Translations under genes and position numbers: made by a program
Part shown: positions 16,696 to 23,763 of the stretch, one piece after another
Layout of the letters: each line of letters begins with the position of its first letter
Numbering within the stretch: the stretch's first letter is position 1
Notes under the pieces: generated by a model
What the model was told of the DNA's origin: nothing
Seen by the model: only the letters and a program-made list of their open reading frames with translations
The model's database searches: none
NCBI GenBank assembly: GCA_016223045.1
Contig: JACRPT010000078.1
Span: forward strand, 1-49,005
Source of the DNA: Candidatus Eiseniibacteriota bacterium
GTDB lineage: Bacteria; Eisenbacteria; RBG-16-71-46
Reading direction: 5' to 3'
DNA: 49,005 nucleotides

Positions 16696-17202
16696 CTACG
16701 TCGCGCCCGTGACAGACCTGAGAGTCTTGAGGATGCCCTCCAGTCTCGCGTACTCCGTCTGGGTGCCGCTCAGGTTCCCGGCGTCACCTAGCTCGTCGAG
16801 TTTGCCGGCCGAGGCCGTGACCTGCTCCACCACCCCCTTGAGCTTCGCGGCCGCCGCCGGGTTCGAAGCGCCCGCCTGATCCGCCAGCGCGACGACCAGG
16901 TCCCGGATCCCGAAGGCGAGGTGGTGGACGTCCTTGAGCTGGCCGTTCTCGATGGCCGCTGAGAGCCTGGCCTGCTCCCCGGCGATCTGCGTCCAGATCT
17001 CCGGCACCGATCCGGCCGGTGTCACCGGGGCTCCGCCCTCCTCACGCGCCGCCGCCTCACCGCCCGGCGCGGCGGCCTCGGGTGCGGCCTGCTGCGCCGC
17101 CGGCGGTGTCTCGGACTCGGTCTTCTTCTGCGCGCAGCCGATCGCCGCGAGCGCAGCGATCGCCAGCGCAGCCAGCATCCACCAACGTGCCTGAGTCTTC
17201 AT
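16696..17202 (-). CDS. Hypothetical helical lipoprotein
   Basis: A 168-residue lipoprotein: signal residues 1-22, lipobox AIGC with Cys23. An Ala/Glu/Pro-rich linker runs to about residue 70, followed by a helical region of about 100 residues (PEIWTQIAGEQARLSAAIENG; VHHLAFGIRDLVVALADQAG). The pattern is that of a helical bundle and includes a His-His pair, but no CXXCH. The ATG at 17202 has AAGGAGG 7 nt upstream. It lies between the second RND pump and copA, so an envelope role in metal handling is plausible. Family not recognised. Confidence 0.7.
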   Translation of the reverse strand: MKTQARWWMLAALAIAALAAIGCAQKKTESETPPAAQQAAPEAAAPGGEAAAREEGGAPVTPAGSVPEIWTQIAGEQARLSAAIENGQLKDVHHLAFGIRDLVVALADQAGASNPAAAAKLKGVVEQVTASAGKLDELGDAGNLSGTQTEYARLEGILKTLRSVTGAT

Positions 17203-17259
17203 CGGGACCCTCCTTCGAACTTCGTGTGGGATACGACCACGGTCCCAGCCCAACATGGC

Positions 17260-17424
17260 CTAGGACTCCTGCGTCTGGGAAGCCAGGTACTTCTCGGCGG
17301 ATTTGCGGCCGAAGCGGAAGAACACCGCCGGCGTGACGATCGTGTCGAGGAGCGTCGAGCTGACCAGCCCCCCGAGGCTCACGGTCGCGACCGGGTAGAG
17401 GATCTCCTTGCCCGGCTCACCTTT
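17260..17424 (-). pseudogene. C-terminal tail of the CzcA-like pump, cut off by an in-frame TAG
   Basis: Reading straight on from the TAG at 17425-17427 in the same frame gives 54 more residues before a TAG at 17260-17262. The sequence (PGKEILYPVATVSLGGL, then SSTLLDTIVTPAVFFRFG) is the conserved last transmembrane helix and tail of HME-RND pumps. With it the protein would be 1037 codons plus the recoded position, close to the usual family length; without it the final helix is lost. A single C-to-A change in a TCG serine codon would explain the TAG. Confidence 0.85.
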
Positions 17425-20373
17425 CTAGAGGACGAGCGGGATGAGCGCCAGGCCGGCGGTCAGTGCCGTCATCAGCACCGGCACCAGACGCTCGAGCGAG
17501 CCGCGCACGACCATGTGGATGTCGAACGCCTCCCCCTCCTCCTTCATGAGGTGCAGATAGTGGGAGATCATCATGATCGTGTTCCGCGAGGCGATGCCGG
17601 TCAGGGTGATGAAGCCGACCAGCGAGGCGACCGAGAAGGTGCCGCCGGTCAGGAAGATCGCCACGACGCTGCCGATCAGGGCCAGCGGGATGTTGAGGAG
17701 GATCTGGAGGACGATCGGCACCGAGCGGAAGTGGGCGTAGAGCACGAGGAACATCGCGGCCAGTGAGAACAGGCTGAGGATGCCGATCAACCGGGTGGCG
17801 GACTGCTGGCTCTCGAACTGGCCACCGTAGGTGATGAAGTAGCCGGTCGGCAGCTTCACCCGGACGTCCACGCGCCGCCGAATGTCCTCCACCACCCGCC
17901 CCAGATCGCGCCCGCTGACGTTGGCCAGCACCACGATGCGACGCTGGACGTTCTCGTGCTGGATGACGTTGGGTCCTCGCGACTCCTCGACCGCCGCCAC
18001 CAGCGACAGCGGCACCCTGGCCCCGGACGGCGTGTCGATGAGAGTGCCGCGAATGACTTCGAGGTTGTTGCGCGACGCCTCGTCGAAACGGACCAGCAGG
18101 TCGAACGTCCGCTGTCCCTCGAGCACCTGCGAGACGACCCGCCCATTGAGGGCCGTCTCCAGCGTCTTCGTGAGATCCCCGACGTTGAGGCCGTAGCGGG
18201 CCAGTGCCGCGCGATCGCCGTCGATGCGAATCTGCGGCACCAGCACCTGCTTCTCGGTCTGGAGGTCGACAACGCCCGGGACCGCGGCCATGGCGGACTG
18301 AATCTCCGCCGCCTTCGCCCGCAGCAGGTCGAGGTCGTTGCCGAAGAGCTTGACCGCGATCTGCGCCCGAACACCCGAGAGCAGGTGGTCCAGCCGGTGT
18401 GAGATCGGCTGGCCAATGTTGATGAACACGCCGGGGATCTGGCCGAGCCTGGTCCGGATGTCGCCGAGGATCTCCTCGCGACTCCGCCTCGAGTGCCGGA
18501 AGTCGACATCGATCTCAGAGTAGTGCACACCCTCGGCGTGCTCATCCAGCTCGGCACGTCCGGTTCGGCGACCGGTCGAGATGACCTCGGGGACGCTCAG
18601 CAGGAGCTGCTCTCCGATCGTTCCGAGGCGATTCGACTCGCTCAGCGACGTACCGGGAGCGGCGAGGAGATTGATGGTGGCCGTGCCTTCATTGAAAGGC
18701 GGCAGGAACTCCCGGCCCATCAGCGGGACCAGGACCGCCGCCCCGAGGACCAGCGCGACCGCCCCGCCGATGACGATCTTCGGGTGCGGCAGCGTGAAGT
18801 TGAGCAGCTTCCGATCCCAGTGCTTCAGGTGGCGGACGACGAAGGAGTCCTTCTCCTGGGCCATGATCTTCGCCCTGGGGAGGAGATAGAGGCAGAGCGC
18901 CGGCGAGACGGTCAGCGACACCACGAACGAGGCCAGGATGGACACGATGTAGGCGACGCCCAGTGGTGCGAACAGCCGCCCTTCGATGCCACTCAGGGCG
19001 AAGAGGGGGATGAACACCAGAACCACCAGGATGGTTGCGTAGACGATCGAGTTACGGACTTCCGAGGACGCGCGGTACACCACCTCGAGGGCCGGCCTGG
19101 GTTCCGGAGCATGCCGATTCTCCCGCAGGCGTCGAAAGACGTTCTCGACGTTGACGATCGCATCGTCCACCAGCTCCCCGATGGCGATCGCCAGACCGCC
19201 GAGCGTCATGGTGTTGATCGAGATATGGAAGAGATTGAAAACGACGGCGGCCGTCACGAACGACAGCGGAATGGCGGTCAGAGTGATGGCCGTGGTGCGA
19301 AAGTTGAGCAGAAACAGGAAGAGCACGATCAGCACCAGGATGGCGCCATCCCGCAGGGCCTCTTCCACGTTGCCGATCGCCGCCTCGATGAAGCTGGCCT
19401 GCTTGAACAGTGGGCGCATGCGCACGTCTTTGGGGAGCGAGGGCTGAAGCTCCCGGAGCGCGGCCTCGATGCGCCGGGTCAGATCGATCGTGCTGGCGCC
19501 GGGCTGCTTCTGGATGGAGAGGATCACGGCCGGCTTGCCATCCACGCTGCCATCGCCACGTTTGACGCGCGTGCCGATGCCGGCGCTGCTCATCTGCTTC
19601 AGGAGCACCGGCACGCCGTTGTGGGTCGCGACCACCGTGCTGAGCAACTGATTGGCGCTTCGGAGGCGGCCGAGATTGCGGATCAGATACTCCTGCGACT
19701 GGGCCTCGAGGTAGCCGCCGGTGCTGTTCTCGTTGCTCTCCCCCACCGCCCGTTCGACGTCCTTCAGCGAGAGCCCGAGCGCGGCCAGGCGCCGCGGACT
19801 GACGAGCACCTGGTACTGCTTGACGCCGCCCCCGATGGGAACAACCTGCGAGACGCCGGGAATCGTCAGCAGCCGCTGGCGCACGACCCAGTCGGCGAGG
19901 GTGCGGATCTCCATCGGCGAAGTCTCACCGGTGGGGCTTTCCATTCCCAGCAGCATGATCTCGCCCATGATCGAGGAGACCGGGCCCATGACGGGCAAGA
20001 CATCCTTCGGCAGGCGCTCGGTCGCCAACTGAAGTTTCTCGCTCACGAGCTGGCGATCGCGGTAGATATCGGTGCCCCATGCGAACTCGACGTACACGAC
20101 CGAGAGGCCGATGCCGGAAGTCGAGCGCACTCGCTCGACGCCGGGGGCGCCGTTCAATGTGGTCTCGATGGGGAGACTGACGAGCGTCTCGACTTCTTCC
20201 GGCGCCAGTCCAGGAGCTTCGGTCAGGATCGTGACGGTCGGGCGGTTGAGATCGGGGAAGACATCCACCGGCAGCTTGAGGATGACGCCGGCACCATAGA
20301 TGAGCAGCAGCAGCGCTGCGGCCACGACGAACAGCCGGTTTCGGAGCGCGAAGTGGATGATTCGATCAAACAT
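17425..20373 (-). CDS. CzcA/CusA-family heavy-metal efflux RND transporter (amber-interrupted near C-terminus)
   Basis: A 982-residue inner-membrane RND pump of the heavy-metal efflux group. It has the opening 'LPVDVFPDLNRPTVTILTE', TM4 motif IGELVDDAIVNVENVFRR, and the usual two large periplasmic loops with 'GMESPTGE' and 'IPGVFINIGQPISHRLDH'. The TM4 sequence differs from CusA (GAMVDAAIVLVEN), so substrate may not be copper; Zn/Co/Ni or an unassigned HME type are possible. The frame ends at a TAG in 'LIPLVL*KGEPGKE', where homologues continue, so it is either a recent nonsense mutation, a readthrough site or a sequence error. TAG ends other intact genes here (36485-36487, 41146-41148), so general recoding is unlikely. 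It follows the adaptor by 12 bp. Confidence 0.85.
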   Translation of the reverse strand: MFDRIIHFALRNRLFVVAAALLLLIYGAGVILKLPVDVFPDLNRPTVTILTEAPGLAPEEVETLVSLPIETTLNGAPGVERVRSTSGIGLSVVYVEFAWGTDIYRDRQLVSEKLQLATERLPKDVLPVMGPVSSIMGEIMLLGMESPTGETSPMEIRTLADWVVRQRLLTIPGVSQVVPIGGGVKQYQVLVSPRRLAALGLSLKDVERAVGESNENSTGGYLEAQSQEYLIRNLGRLRSANQLLSTVVATHNGVPVLLKQMSSAGIGTRVKRGDGSVDGKPAVILSIQKQPGASTIDLTRRIEAALRELQPSLPKDVRMRPLFKQASFIEAAIGNVEEALRDGAILVLIVLFLFLLNFRTTAITLTAIPLSFVTAAVVFNLFHISINTMTLGGLAIAIGELVDDAIVNVENVFRRLRENRHAPEPRPALEVVYRASSEVRNSIVYATILVVLVFIPLFALSGIEGRLFAPLGVAYIVSILASFVVSLTVSPALCLYLLPRAKIMAQEKDSFVVRHLKHWDRKLLNFTLPHPKIVIGGAVALVLGAAVLVPLMGREFLPPFNEGTATINLLAAPGTSLSESNRLGTIGEQLLLSVPEVISTGRRTGRAELDEHAEGVHYSEIDVDFRHSRRSREEILGDIRTRLGQIPGVFINIGQPISHRLDHLLSGVRAQIAVKLFGNDLDLLRAKAAEIQSAMAAVPGVVDLQTEKQVLVPQIRIDGDRAALARYGLNVGDLTKTLETALNGRVVSQVLEGQRTFDLLVRFDEASRNNLEVIRGTLIDTPSGARVPLSLVAAVEESRGPNVIQHENVQRRIVVLANVSGRDLGRVVEDIRRRVDVRVKLPTGYFITYGGQFESQQSATRLIGILSLFSLAAMFLVLYAHFRSVPIVLQILLNIPLALIGSVVAIFLTGGTFSVASLVGFITLTGIASRNTIMMISHYLHLMKEEGEAFDIHMVVRGSLERLVPVLMTALTAGLALIPLVL

Positions 20374-20385
20374 GGTCGCGCTCCA

Positions 20386-21846
20386 TCACTGGCCGAGACC
20401 GACGACCGGAGCCGTCAGCAGCGGATAGCCGCCCGCGACGACCACGCGATCGCCCGGATTGAGTTCGCCGGTCACCGCCACGCGCGCGCCCAGGCTCGTG
20501 CCCAGCGTCACTTCCCGGGCGATGAAACGCTCCGGGGCCGTGTGGACGAAGACGAGCTGGCGCCCGTCCTTTTCGAACACGGCGCTGCGGGAGACGACGA
20601 GCGCCGATTCCACGCCGCCCTGTTCGATGCCCACGTCGACGAGCGCCCCGATCTTGAGTCGGCCACCGATGTTCGGAACTTCGAACCATGCTTCGATGGC
20701 TCCCAGCACCTCGCCCTGCGTGACGCCGAGGGCCACGCGCCGGCCGGTCAGTGCGAGATCGGGCATGCCGGGGGAGGTGATGACGGCCCGGGTGGACTGC
20801 TGCACACCGGGAACGTCCGCTTCGTAGACATCGGCGTGCACCCAGACGACCGTGGGATCGAGGAGCGTCATGAGCTTCTGCCCGGCCTCGACCAGCTGTC
20901 CGTTGACGACGAACACGCCCGTGATGACCCCGGTCAAGGGCACTCGCAGGCTGAGGTCGTCGACCACCGTGAGCCGTGCCACGGCCTCGCCTCTGGTCAC
21001 GCTCAGACCGATCACCGGCACGCGTCCATCGGCGAAGAAGATGCGTCCCGCCTGGGGCGCCACGATCTCGACCTCCCCGCCGCCGCGCGGAGCGACCCGG
21101 CCCAGTACGCCCAGCCGCTTCTGCACCGGCTGGCGCTTGAGGGGCTCGGTGCGGACTCCGAGCAGGAACTGGGATGCCTTCGAGATGAAGACCTGCGCTC
21201 CGGGGCCGACGGGCGTGCCGGATGAGGCGGGGGCTTCGTCATGTCCCGCATGCGCCTGCGCGATGGCAGGTGCGAGAAGCACCCCCAGTATGAGGGCCGC
21301 TCCCGCTGCAGACACGTGACGCCGTGCCATGACGAACAACCCGACGGAGAGCACGAGCGCACCACCCAGCAGCCAGATCCAGCGGAACCCGCGAGGCGCC
21401 GAGGCGCCGGTCTCGAAACGCTCGGTACTTACCTGCAGACCAGAGAGGGCGAATCGCCCCTCTCCGATTGCGCCGGCAATCGTCATCAAGACCGTGAATG
21501 AGCCGGTATCTGCTGGAGCCTGAAACGGCACCATGAAGATACCCGCCCGGTTGGTCGCTGTGGCAGAACCGGTCCAGAGTTCCCGAGCATTGGAACGAAG
21601 TCCCAGTGAGATGGCGACGTTTGTGATCGGAGCGTTCGTTTGGAAATCACTGAGATAGAGATCCAGCGTGTCCTTCAGGCCCGGGCGTAGCTGCTTGCTC
21701 TTGAGGACTACTTCGTAGCGATCCGAATGCACGGTGAGTACCTGTTGGCTCGATATCGCAGCACCTCCTTCCCCGGGCGCGTCCTTCGCGACGGCCGCTC
21801 CGCCAGTCGCCAGCAGCAGGAGCGTCAGCAAGACCAGGTGTCTCAT
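20386..21846 (-). CDS. RND periplasmic adaptor with N-terminal YtkA/FixH-like domain and membrane helices
   Basis: A 486-residue protein. Residues 1-20 are a signal. Residues about 36-141 form a YtkA/FixH-like beta-sandwich (DTLDLYLSDFQTNAPITNV; 'AGIFMVPFQAPADTGSFTV'). Two hydrophobic helices lie at about 157-174 and 178-198, followed by HAGHDEA. From about 210 on it is a CusB/HlyD-type adaptor ('EIVAPQAGRIFFADG', 'TGVITGVFVVNGQLVEAGQKL', 'VTGELNPGDRVVVAGGYPLL'). It joins the second RND pump to its TolC channel. Adaptors usually lack the front domain; here it resembles the stand-alone protein at 13008-13634, suggesting a copper- or metal-delivery module fused to the pump. It overlaps the TolC gene by 4 bp. 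Confidence 0.85.
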   Translation of the reverse strand: MRHLVLLTLLLLATGGAAVAKDAPGEGGAAISSQQVLTVHSDRYEVVLKSKQLRPGLKDTLDLYLSDFQTNAPITNVAISLGLRSNARELWTGSATATNRAGIFMVPFQAPADTGSFTVLMTIAGAIGEGRFALSGLQVSTERFETGASAPRGFRWIWLLGGALVLSVGLFVMARRHVSAAGAALILGVLLAPAIAQAHAGHDEAPASSGTPVGPGAQVFISKASQFLLGVRTEPLKRQPVQKRLGVLGRVAPRGGGEVEIVAPQAGRIFFADGRVPVIGLSVTRGEAVARLTVVDDLSLRVPLTGVITGVFVVNGQLVEAGQKLMTLLDPTVVWVHADVYEADVPGVQQSTRAVITSPGMPDLALTGRRVALGVTQGEVLGAIEAWFEVPNIGGRLKIGALVDVGIEQGGVESALVVSRSAVFEKDGRQLVFVHTAPERFIAREVTLGTSLGARVAVTGELNPGDRVVVAGGYPLLTAPVVGLGQ

Positions 21847-23246
21847 CGCGCGCCCCCCGCGTTGAGGCGGGTCAGGTCGAGACCGACCGTGGCCTCCAGT
21901 GCGCCGCGCGCTTCCCAGTAGGCGTCGGCCGCTTCAAGCTGCCCGATCATCGTGTCCACGAGGCGCCCCTTCTGCGTGAGGTAGGAGTCCAGCGAGATGC
22001 GTCCGTCGGCATAGGCATCGCGAACCAGCGACAGGTCCTCCCGAACGCGCCCCGATCGTCCCAGATAGAGCCGGTAGAGGCCGGCCGCGTCCTCGAACCG
22101 CCGCACCGCGCCGATGACTTCAAGTCGAGCTCTCGAACGGAAGCGGTCGTAGTCCGCCTGACTCCGCGTGACCTCGGCCGCAGCGCGTGCGCGGCCGGCC
22201 TGATTCTTCTGGAAGAGAGGAAGCGGCACGCTGACCCGCACCCGCCACAGGCGATCGGTGTCCCGGGCACCCGTGATGCTGCGCACGATCACCGGATCGC
22301 CGGAGAAATCATCGCCCGCGAAGGCCTGACGTTCGATCGCCAGCCCGGCCCCGACGGTGAGGTTCGGCCGGGCCTCGCGCTCGGCCAGATGGAGTTCCGC
22401 GCGGCGCTCGTCGATCTGGCGGCGCAGCACCTCGCTCTCACCGCGAACGCGGAGGGCCAACGCGATCACGGAGTCCTCCGGCATCTGGAGAGAGTCCGCG
22501 CGCAGCTCGCCACCCAGCCGTGTCGATTCTGGAAGCTCGAGCCCGATGGCCAGTCCGAGGGCGACGAGCGCCTGTCGCCGGTCACTGCGGGTCCGTCTGC
22601 TCTGCGCCTCCAGGCGGAGCACGTCGAGTTCGGTCAGACGCCCGGTCACCGGGGTGATGAGTCCCTCGCGCACGCGCGCCTGTGTCGAGAGGAGGACCCG
22701 ACGGTCCAGGCCGATCAGCTCACCGAGCGTCTCGAGTCGGTCCTGCAGGAAGAGCGCTCGCTCGAACTGCGCGCGAACATTCGACTCGACCTGTTGCAGC
22801 GTGGTACTCAGCTCGGCCGCACTCTTCCGGGAGCGGGCCGTCGCCACGGACTGGCGGGCACCCCGCTTGCCCCAGAGCTCGAGCTCCTGGGCAACACCCA
22901 CTTCGAGGGAACCGTCGGTTCCCGAACCCAGCGATTGCCCGCCGCGCGAGGACTGGAACTCGATCTCCGGGTTGAACCCGGGGAGCCGCGCGAACAGCGA
23001 GTCGGCACGCACGACGGCGAGATTGGCTCGCGCCACGTTCAAGTCCGGGTGGACCTGCCTTGCCAGCTCGAGTGCCGCCGGCAGCGTGAACGGGTCGGGG
23101 ATCACCGGCTCTGAGGCGCTGTTCGCGGTCCACGCGGCAGCCGCCACGAACTGCGAGAGCGGCACGGCAGCTCCGGCGTGCGCACTCGTCCACAGGAGAG
23201 CGATGCCTGCGGTCACGGTAAGGCGACGCGTCGGCCCTGAAGCCAT
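21843..23246 (-). CDS. TolC-family outer-membrane efflux channel (second RND set)
   Basis: A 467-residue OEP-family protein with a signal peptide (about residues 1-27, LLWTSAHAGA) and two helical repeats ('LPAALELARQVHPDLNVARAN', 'VSVPLPLFQKNQAGRARAA'). It is the exit channel for the second pump. The ATG at 23246 is preferred because GGTGGAG lies 5 nt upstream and the signal peptide then begins properly; the frame is open further upstream but that extension looks non-coding. It overlaps the adaptor by 4 bp and follows the small Cys-rich gene by 103 bp. Codon third positions are less GC-rich here than in the housekeeping genes at 26-35 kb. Confidence 0.87.
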   Translation of the reverse strand: MASGPTRRLTVTAGIALLWTSAHAGAAVPLSQFVAAAAWTANSASEPVIPDPFTLPAALELARQVHPDLNVARANLAVVRADSLFARLPGFNPEIEFQSSRGGQSLGSGTDGSLEVGVAQELELWGKRGARQSVATARSRKSAAELSTTLQQVESNVRAQFERALFLQDRLETLGELIGLDRRVLLSTQARVREGLITPVTGRLTELDVLRLEAQSRRTRSDRRQALVALGLAIGLELPESTRLGGELRADSLQMPEDSVIALALRVRGESEVLRRQIDERRAELHLAEREARPNLTVGAGLAIERQAFAGDDFSGDPVIVRSITGARDTDRLWRVRVSVPLPLFQKNQAGRARAAAEVTRSQADYDRFRSRARLEVIGAVRRFEDAAGLYRLYLGRSGRVREDLSLVRDAYADGRISLDSYLTQKGRLVDTMIGQLEAADAYWEARGALEATVGLDLTRLNAGGAR

Positions 23247-23349
23247 TCCATCTCCACCTTTCCGTCGGGCTGAGACCACGCCCGACCTGCATTCCCGGAC
23301 GCCACGAAAGCAGGCGCACTTCATCCAACTTCAGGAAAAGAACGGGAAG

Positions 23350-23745
23350 CTAGGCGGAGAGAGGCGGACTACGGGGAGACTGAGGAGCGGATGAGGGATC
23401 GGGTGGAGAACCCGATCGCGGGTCAGGCGCGAGACCGGCAGAGACGCCGCACGCGCTACGGGCGACCAGCGCCGCCGGGACGACCGCGAGGACCGAGGAA
23501 TCCGAGGCAGAGCCCGGGAGTGAGACCGCGGCGGGTGTCGTGGCCGCCGGAAGCTGGATCCAGACGCAGCAGCAAGGTCCGGTCGGCGACGCCGGGTCTG
23601 GCGACGCCGGGGAGTCATGGCCGTCGCCGGCGTCATGGTGGTCGGTCTGCAGCGCGTCCGGCGTCGCCTGCAACGGCGTGAACGCACAATACGCCTGCTC
23701 GAGCGGCAGCAGCACCGCAACCAGCAGGGTCAGCACCACGCGCAT
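23350..23745 (-). CDS. Small secreted CC-motif protein heading the second RND operon
   Basis: A 131-residue protein with a signal peptide (RVVLTLLVAVLLPLEQAYC). A short His/Asp-rich stretch (TDHHDAGDGHD) follows, then GPCCCVWIQLP and a Ser/Pro/Ala-rich tail. It has the same plan as the protein at 10618-11025: signal, His/acidic stretch, adjacent cysteines followed by Val and Pro, low-complexity tail. Each stands directly in front of a TolC gene. The ATG at 23745 has AGAGGAG 8 nt upstream. A metal-binding or pump-assembly role is inferred from placement; I cannot name the family. Confidence 0.6.
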   Translation of the reverse strand: MRVVLTLLVAVLLPLEQAYCAFTPLQATPDALQTDHHDAGDGHDSPASPDPASPTGPCCCVWIQLPAATTPAAVSLPGSASDSSVLAVVPAALVARSACGVSAGLAPDPRSGSPPDPSSAPQSPRSPPLSA

Positions 23746-23763
23746 CCCGAGCACTCCTCTCAT

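Follow-up and report, generated by a model that had tools for sequence, protein, structure and literature searches.

The question raised by this locus is whether a TAG that falls 54 codons short of the usual end of a metal efflux pump gene silences the pump, is read through by the ribosome, or is missing from most cells and merely shown by the assembly. The window, by which is meant the whole 49,005-nucleotide stretch of DNA that was analysed, belongs to a draft genome referred to below as G000. Nonsense mutation, local readthrough and sequence error had been the three options of a preliminary description; on the evidence of the relatives, the tRNAs, the release factor and a scan that covered 21% of the genome, the likeliest of them is a recent nonsense mutation, and this is probably what befell an ordinary CusA/CzcA-type pump gene here.

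The pump gene and its interrupted end

As an open reading frame, the pump opens with an ATG at 20373 on the minus strand and runs for 982 amino acids to the TAG at 17425–17427, beyond which the same frame stays open for 54 further codons, up to a second TAG at 17260–17262. The preliminary description had read the locus in the same way and had seen the last transmembrane (TM) helix in the 54 residues, and both the coordinates and a match of the tail to positions 1002–1045 of the family model TIGR00914 bear this out. The features of the locus are as follows.

17428–20373, minus strand: body of the CusA/CzcA-type RND permease gene, 982 codons, TM1 to TM11 (TIGR00914 and PF00873)
17425–17427, minus strand: in-frame TAG, codon 983 of the pump gene (read in the sequence)
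17263–17424, minus strand: 54-codon tail, TM12 and C-terminus in intact relatives (TIGR00914, identity to G001, hydropathy)
17260–17262, minus strand: TAG at the usual end of the pump gene (same place as the stop of G001)
20386–21846, minus strand: periplasmic adaptor of the HlyD/CusB type, first partner of the pump (PF16576, 49 bits over the cut-off)
21843–23324, minus strand: outer-membrane efflux protein of the TolC/CzcC type (PF02321, 112.1 bits)
16696–17202, minus strand: small lipoprotein-like gene downstream of the pump (start picked by eye behind GAAGGAGG)

Against TIGR00914 (CusA/CzcA) the body scores 805.4 bits over model positions 1–996 of 1051, above the curated cut-off of 701.45 bits, and against PF00873 of Pfam it scores 859.5 bits. 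By these scores it is assigned to the CusA/CzcA RND permeases, with metal transport as the predicted function. The match of the tail alone (E 5.1e-5) begins directly after that of the body, and a search of the gene through the stop covers positions 1–1042 with 840.5 bits and "1 TAG" inside. Hydropathy of an intact relative places TM11 at about 962–985 and TM12 at about 990–1018; the stop is codon 983, and the predicted product therefore ends where TM11 ends, so that by this prediction the pump as terminated does not reach twelve helices. The C-terminal part of the intact relative aligns with the zinc pump ZneA (4k0e), up to ZneA residue 1021. The gene thus resembles the CusA/CzcA heavy-metal permeases (TIGR00914; solved relatives are ZneA 4k0e and CusA 3k07) in its body, in its match through the stop and in its adjoining adaptor and outer-membrane genes, but differs from them in that the frame is stopped after TM11 and 54 residues with TM12 are cut off.

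The adaptor and outer-membrane genes lie upstream of the pump and the small gene downstream. The adaptor gene falls under the NCBIfam cut-offs, and the longer reading frame of the small gene (16696–17256) has no match in Pfam or NCBIfam. Positions 16696–23753, the small gene included, form one aligned block with a contig of G001, at 74.8% identical DNA. The tetranucleotide CTAG is depleted in the window and loci L171–L210 of G000, with 154 occurrences in 806,528 bases vs 901 expected from trinucleotides, and the in-frame TAG of the pump sits in one of the six CTAGs of the window.

The stop in related pumps

G001, the nearest relative read, is of the same family and another genus according to the labels of the tool used. 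Its pump is 87% identical, has no stop, carries GCG (Ala) at the site and ends at the same second stop. Residues identical to G001 number 47 of 54 in the tail and 857 of 982 in the body, so the tail is no chance open frame, and its description as real coding homology was correct. The wider comparison drew on the best 80 of 183 relatives, with loci from named public genomes. One of these, L112, was omitted because its frame breaks at codon 257, and the alignment holds 79 homologue loci and G001 (80 rows) together with the window copy. The column of the stop has 49 Ala, 12 Ser, 7 Gly, 5 Arg and 7 gaps; a residue can thus be read in 73 of the 80 rows, as the preliminary description had suggested doing, and none of the 73 is a stop. 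The stop is present in the consensus of G000 and absent from all relatives readable at the site. In 71 of the 80 rows the protein extends for 44 residues or more from the site, so that the homologues go on where the window copy stops and the idea of a lost end stands; of the other nine, seven run into a contig end, and in two (L101 and L103) the frame is already lost upstream. With a stop in one genome and a homologous tail beyond it, the gene is classed, on its sequence, as probably nonsense-inactivated.

A change from TCG to TAG had been proposed as the origin of the codon, and TCG is indeed one step from TAG and occurs in the column, where it is the only such codon, in one of the 73 homologues; G001, however, has GCG, two changes away. 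A step from TCG is therefore no more than a possibility.

Homologous pumps with lost frames were seen in three public draft genomes (L101, L103 and L112), and in L101 an internal stretch of the gene is repeated. The exact stop site had no match in viral contigs. Plasmids carry distant pumps: 171 records have a match, and among the matches listed the first is at 67.8% identity.

Selection on the tail and age of the stop

The tail has evolved at much the same pace as the body: against G001, dN and dS are 0.081 and 0.803 for the body and 0.086 and 0.752 for the tail, and the differences at the first, second and third codon positions number 99, 63 and 392 in the body and 5, 4 and 21 in the tail. 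The pump gene aligns to G001 without gaps and divergence rises past the second TAG: each 30-base bin differs at 12–22 positions over the five bins of 17100–17249, vs 3–7 over the five of 17280–17429. Since the tail evolves like the body, the stop must be young, false or leaky. On this substitution pattern, the pump gene is judged to have been under normal constraint until recently, and its tail to have been evolving as a coding sequence through almost the whole period since G001 split off.

Amino-acid changes were assigned to branches with seven outgroups, using the columns that had five or more outgroup residues and a 70% majority. Fifteen changes fell to the window copy and 19 to G001, with 14 more columns in which neither matches the outgroups. 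The changes on the window branch are somewhat more radical (mean BLOSUM62 0.33 vs 1.58 for G001), and both proteins keep the conserved residue in all 193 columns with conservation of 97% or more. There is thus no excess of changes that would mark relaxed selection after the stop, but a young stop would leave no such trace.

Reading of UAG in this genome

Amber codons are known to be recoded through pyrrolysine or through suppressor tRNAs such as allo-tRNAs. The pump is like those systems in having an in-frame UAG, and unlike them in that the G000 assembly holds no PylS over the cut-off (best match 14.8 bits vs a cut-off of 178.15) and no tRNA found to have a CTA anticodon. The search for an amber suppressor, which the preliminary description had called for, gave 42 tRNA matches, 41 of them named by ARAGORN; neither these 41, nor the remaining tRNA-like match (CAT), nor a tRNA-Sec (anticodon TCA) of this incomplete assembly has a CTA anticodon. 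A pattern search for CTA-anticodon tRNAs hit five places, all within tRNAs already named with other anticodons. Some expected tRNAs are missing from the assembly (there is no tRNA-Ile GAT among those named), and a suppressor tRNA could therefore be missed as well. The tRNA-like match lies at C113:13820–13879 of G000, on the minus strand (L157); it is 60 bases long, scores 33.2 bits, has no D arm, carries CAT in its anticodon loop and is not called by ARAGORN.

RF1 is present in G000 (508.9 bits), and a second GGQ-bearing release factor on another contig is taken as RF2. A scan with a codon-usage model, covering 806,528 bases (21% of the genome) and 606 genes, found gene ends at 386 TGA, 181 TAG and 16 TAA codons, with 23 genes open. 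With 181 of the 606 model genes ending in TAG, and RF1 present, general recoding of TAG is ruled out. That recoding is not general here had been claimed before, and the relatives, the tRNAs, RF1 and the scan all agree with it. A cis-acting RNA signal at the stop was likewise sought and not found: folding of the RNA downstream of it is unremarkable (fold z 0.39), and Rfam gives no match at E up to 1 for positions 17000–17700.

Other lesions in this genome and its relatives

The scan listed 15 stops in G000 and 9 in G001. A strict scan of the same bases (806,528 in G000) gave 4 and 0 frame switches, the four of G000 being frameshift candidates. Stops and frame switches alike were judged by eye as true interruptions or neighbouring genes. 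Together with a previous pass that covered 446,947 of the bases of G000, this left four genes of G000 that are continuous apart from one in-frame TAG, the pump and three others. The method is insensitive: the case in L190 came up in the previous pass and falls below the thresholds of the full scan. Among matches to RND pumps listed over 20 genomes of the family, six rows had an internal stop, of which three were natural gene ends and three internal TAGs (G000, G015 and G019). The cases besides the pump are these.

L171:17042 (G000:C62): in-frame TAG in a Kelch/galactose-oxidase-like protein, with Pfam matches on both sides of the stop
L190:11902 (G000:C88): in-frame TAG in a secreted-looking protein without a Pfam match
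L209:7468 (G000:C146), minus strand: in-frame TAG in a methyltransferase-like protein
L179:11259 (minus strand), L184:1620, L187:7596 and L204:4419 (positions on the strand read): frameshift candidates of G000, by eye
G015:C203 (L158) and G019:C286 (L162): in-frame TAGs in RND pumps of related genomes
G001:C8 (L212:8062), minus strand: in-frame TAG in a small protein

In the methyltransferase-like protein of L209, the half after the stop matches positions 90–159 of Methyltransf_23 just under the cut-off, and a relative matches 20–159. Three relatives at 61–67% identity and one weak one have no stop, and at the site GAG stands in the one readable of the three close relatives. The frameshift candidate in L187 has a short tandem duplication at the break. 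Single TAGs and frameshift candidates elsewhere in the sampled 21% mean that broken genes are not rare in this genome. The 460,000 bases scanned in G001 contained a single likely in-frame TAG and yielded no candidate for a frameshift, so G000 may carry more lesions than G001.

All four of the single stops in G000 are TAG, and a crude Fisher comparison (4 vs 177 for TAG, 0 vs 386 for TGA) gives p 0.01. As a sign of recoding this enrichment was rejected, since the p value ignores that TAG is the commonest product of one-step nonsense mutation. In the pump gene of the intact relative, 171 of the 227 one-step opportunities lead to TAG (39 lead to TAA and 17 to TGA). Over the sampled genes the share of TAG is about 70% (69–71%), at which the chance that four of four in-frame stops are TAG is 0.24.

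Competing explanations

A recent nonsense mutation fits the absence of the stop in 73 of 73 homologues, a dN/dS of the tail like that of the body, the gap-free alignment, the presence of RF1 and the lack of a CTA tRNA; against it stand the lack of visible relaxed selection (15 vs 19 changes) and the nearest codon, which is two changes from TAG. RF1 would then terminate at 17425–17427, and the 982-residue product, without TM12 and the cytoplasmic end, would probably be misfolded or inactive. The three-gene efflux system would be silent in this strain, a loss that other RND permeases of the genome may soften. A nonsense allele accounts for the data at no extra cost and a consensus error does so nearly as well, making it the main rival. 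That the assembly shows an erroneous or minor-allele stop that most cells lack is unlikely on balance, though the window comes from a draft assembly of 164 contigs, the rest of the pump gene appears intact, and frames are lost in 2 of the 79 aligned public-draft loci and in the omitted one. Starting from the codon of G001, an error would have to affect two adjacent bases, if the true codon is indeed that one, and the bins adjoining the site (5 and 5 differences to G001 per 30 bases) are no worse than others.

Local or occasional readthrough, in which some of the ribosomes would get past the UAG to make the complete pump, is very unlikely. The equal constraint on tail and body would suit such leakage. 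So would the four genes of the sampled 21% that are continuous apart from one TAG, and the single in-frame TAGs seen in three other members of the family (G001, G015 and G019). In E. coli reporters, readthrough is reported to be measurable at some random premature stops (16 of 117), but more at TGA than at TAG (PMC11126739). No suppressor tRNA, PylS over the cut-off, special fold or Rfam match was found, the stop is kept in none of the 73 homologues, and TAG would be expected at 69–71% of one-step nonsense mutations anyway. Readthrough is unsupported: it would depend either on a factor for which the searches gave no sign or on leakiness of the stop without any help. A broader version builds on the same TAGs, four in the sampled 21% of G000 and single cases in three related genomes: the lineage would tolerate or use occasional UAG readthrough without a dedicated suppressor tRNA, and the TAGs would persist by lowering rather than abolishing expression. 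This is more doubtful still. The least probable reading is a working short pump, in which the 982-residue product functions despite lacking TM12, or a separate peptide supplies that helix. The body alone is over the family cut-off and the partner genes are present; yet none of the 71 judgeable homologue rows ends near the site, and the tail contains no ATG. The earliest codon there that resembles a start, a GTG, is tail codon 15 and falls inside TM12, with no ribosome-binding site at the usual distance by eye.

An ordinary recent nonsense mutation, or else a sequence error, is what the evidence favours over a new reading of the genetic code. Genes with one nonsense lesion do occur in genomes, and the case as it stands matters little beyond the fact that annotation would shorten or discard the pump gene. 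Were readthrough shown, production of the final helix of a membrane pump would be conditional, and the few TAG-bearing genes would be a ready test set. Belinky et al. 2021, surveying bacterial genes, report in-frame stops to be widespread and mostly short-lived, in genes with dN/dS below 1 (PMC7918605). Like those cases, the pump gene has one in-frame stop and otherwise shows purifying selection, but the survey required a stop shared by two or more species and this one was found in one genome only. Judged by title, no paper on a premature stop in a CzcA/RND pump was found.

In-frame TGA codons

Two further loci of G000 have an in-frame TGA at a Cys-like position. In L196 (contig C29), at 15457 on the minus strand, it stands in CG-TGA-H before a cytochrome c554-like domain, and in L202 (contig C46), at 3601 on the plus strand, in PW-TGA-HTC within a thioredoxin-like stretch. 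Given the tRNA-Sec at C139:21081–21174 of the same genome, both look like candidate selenoproteins.
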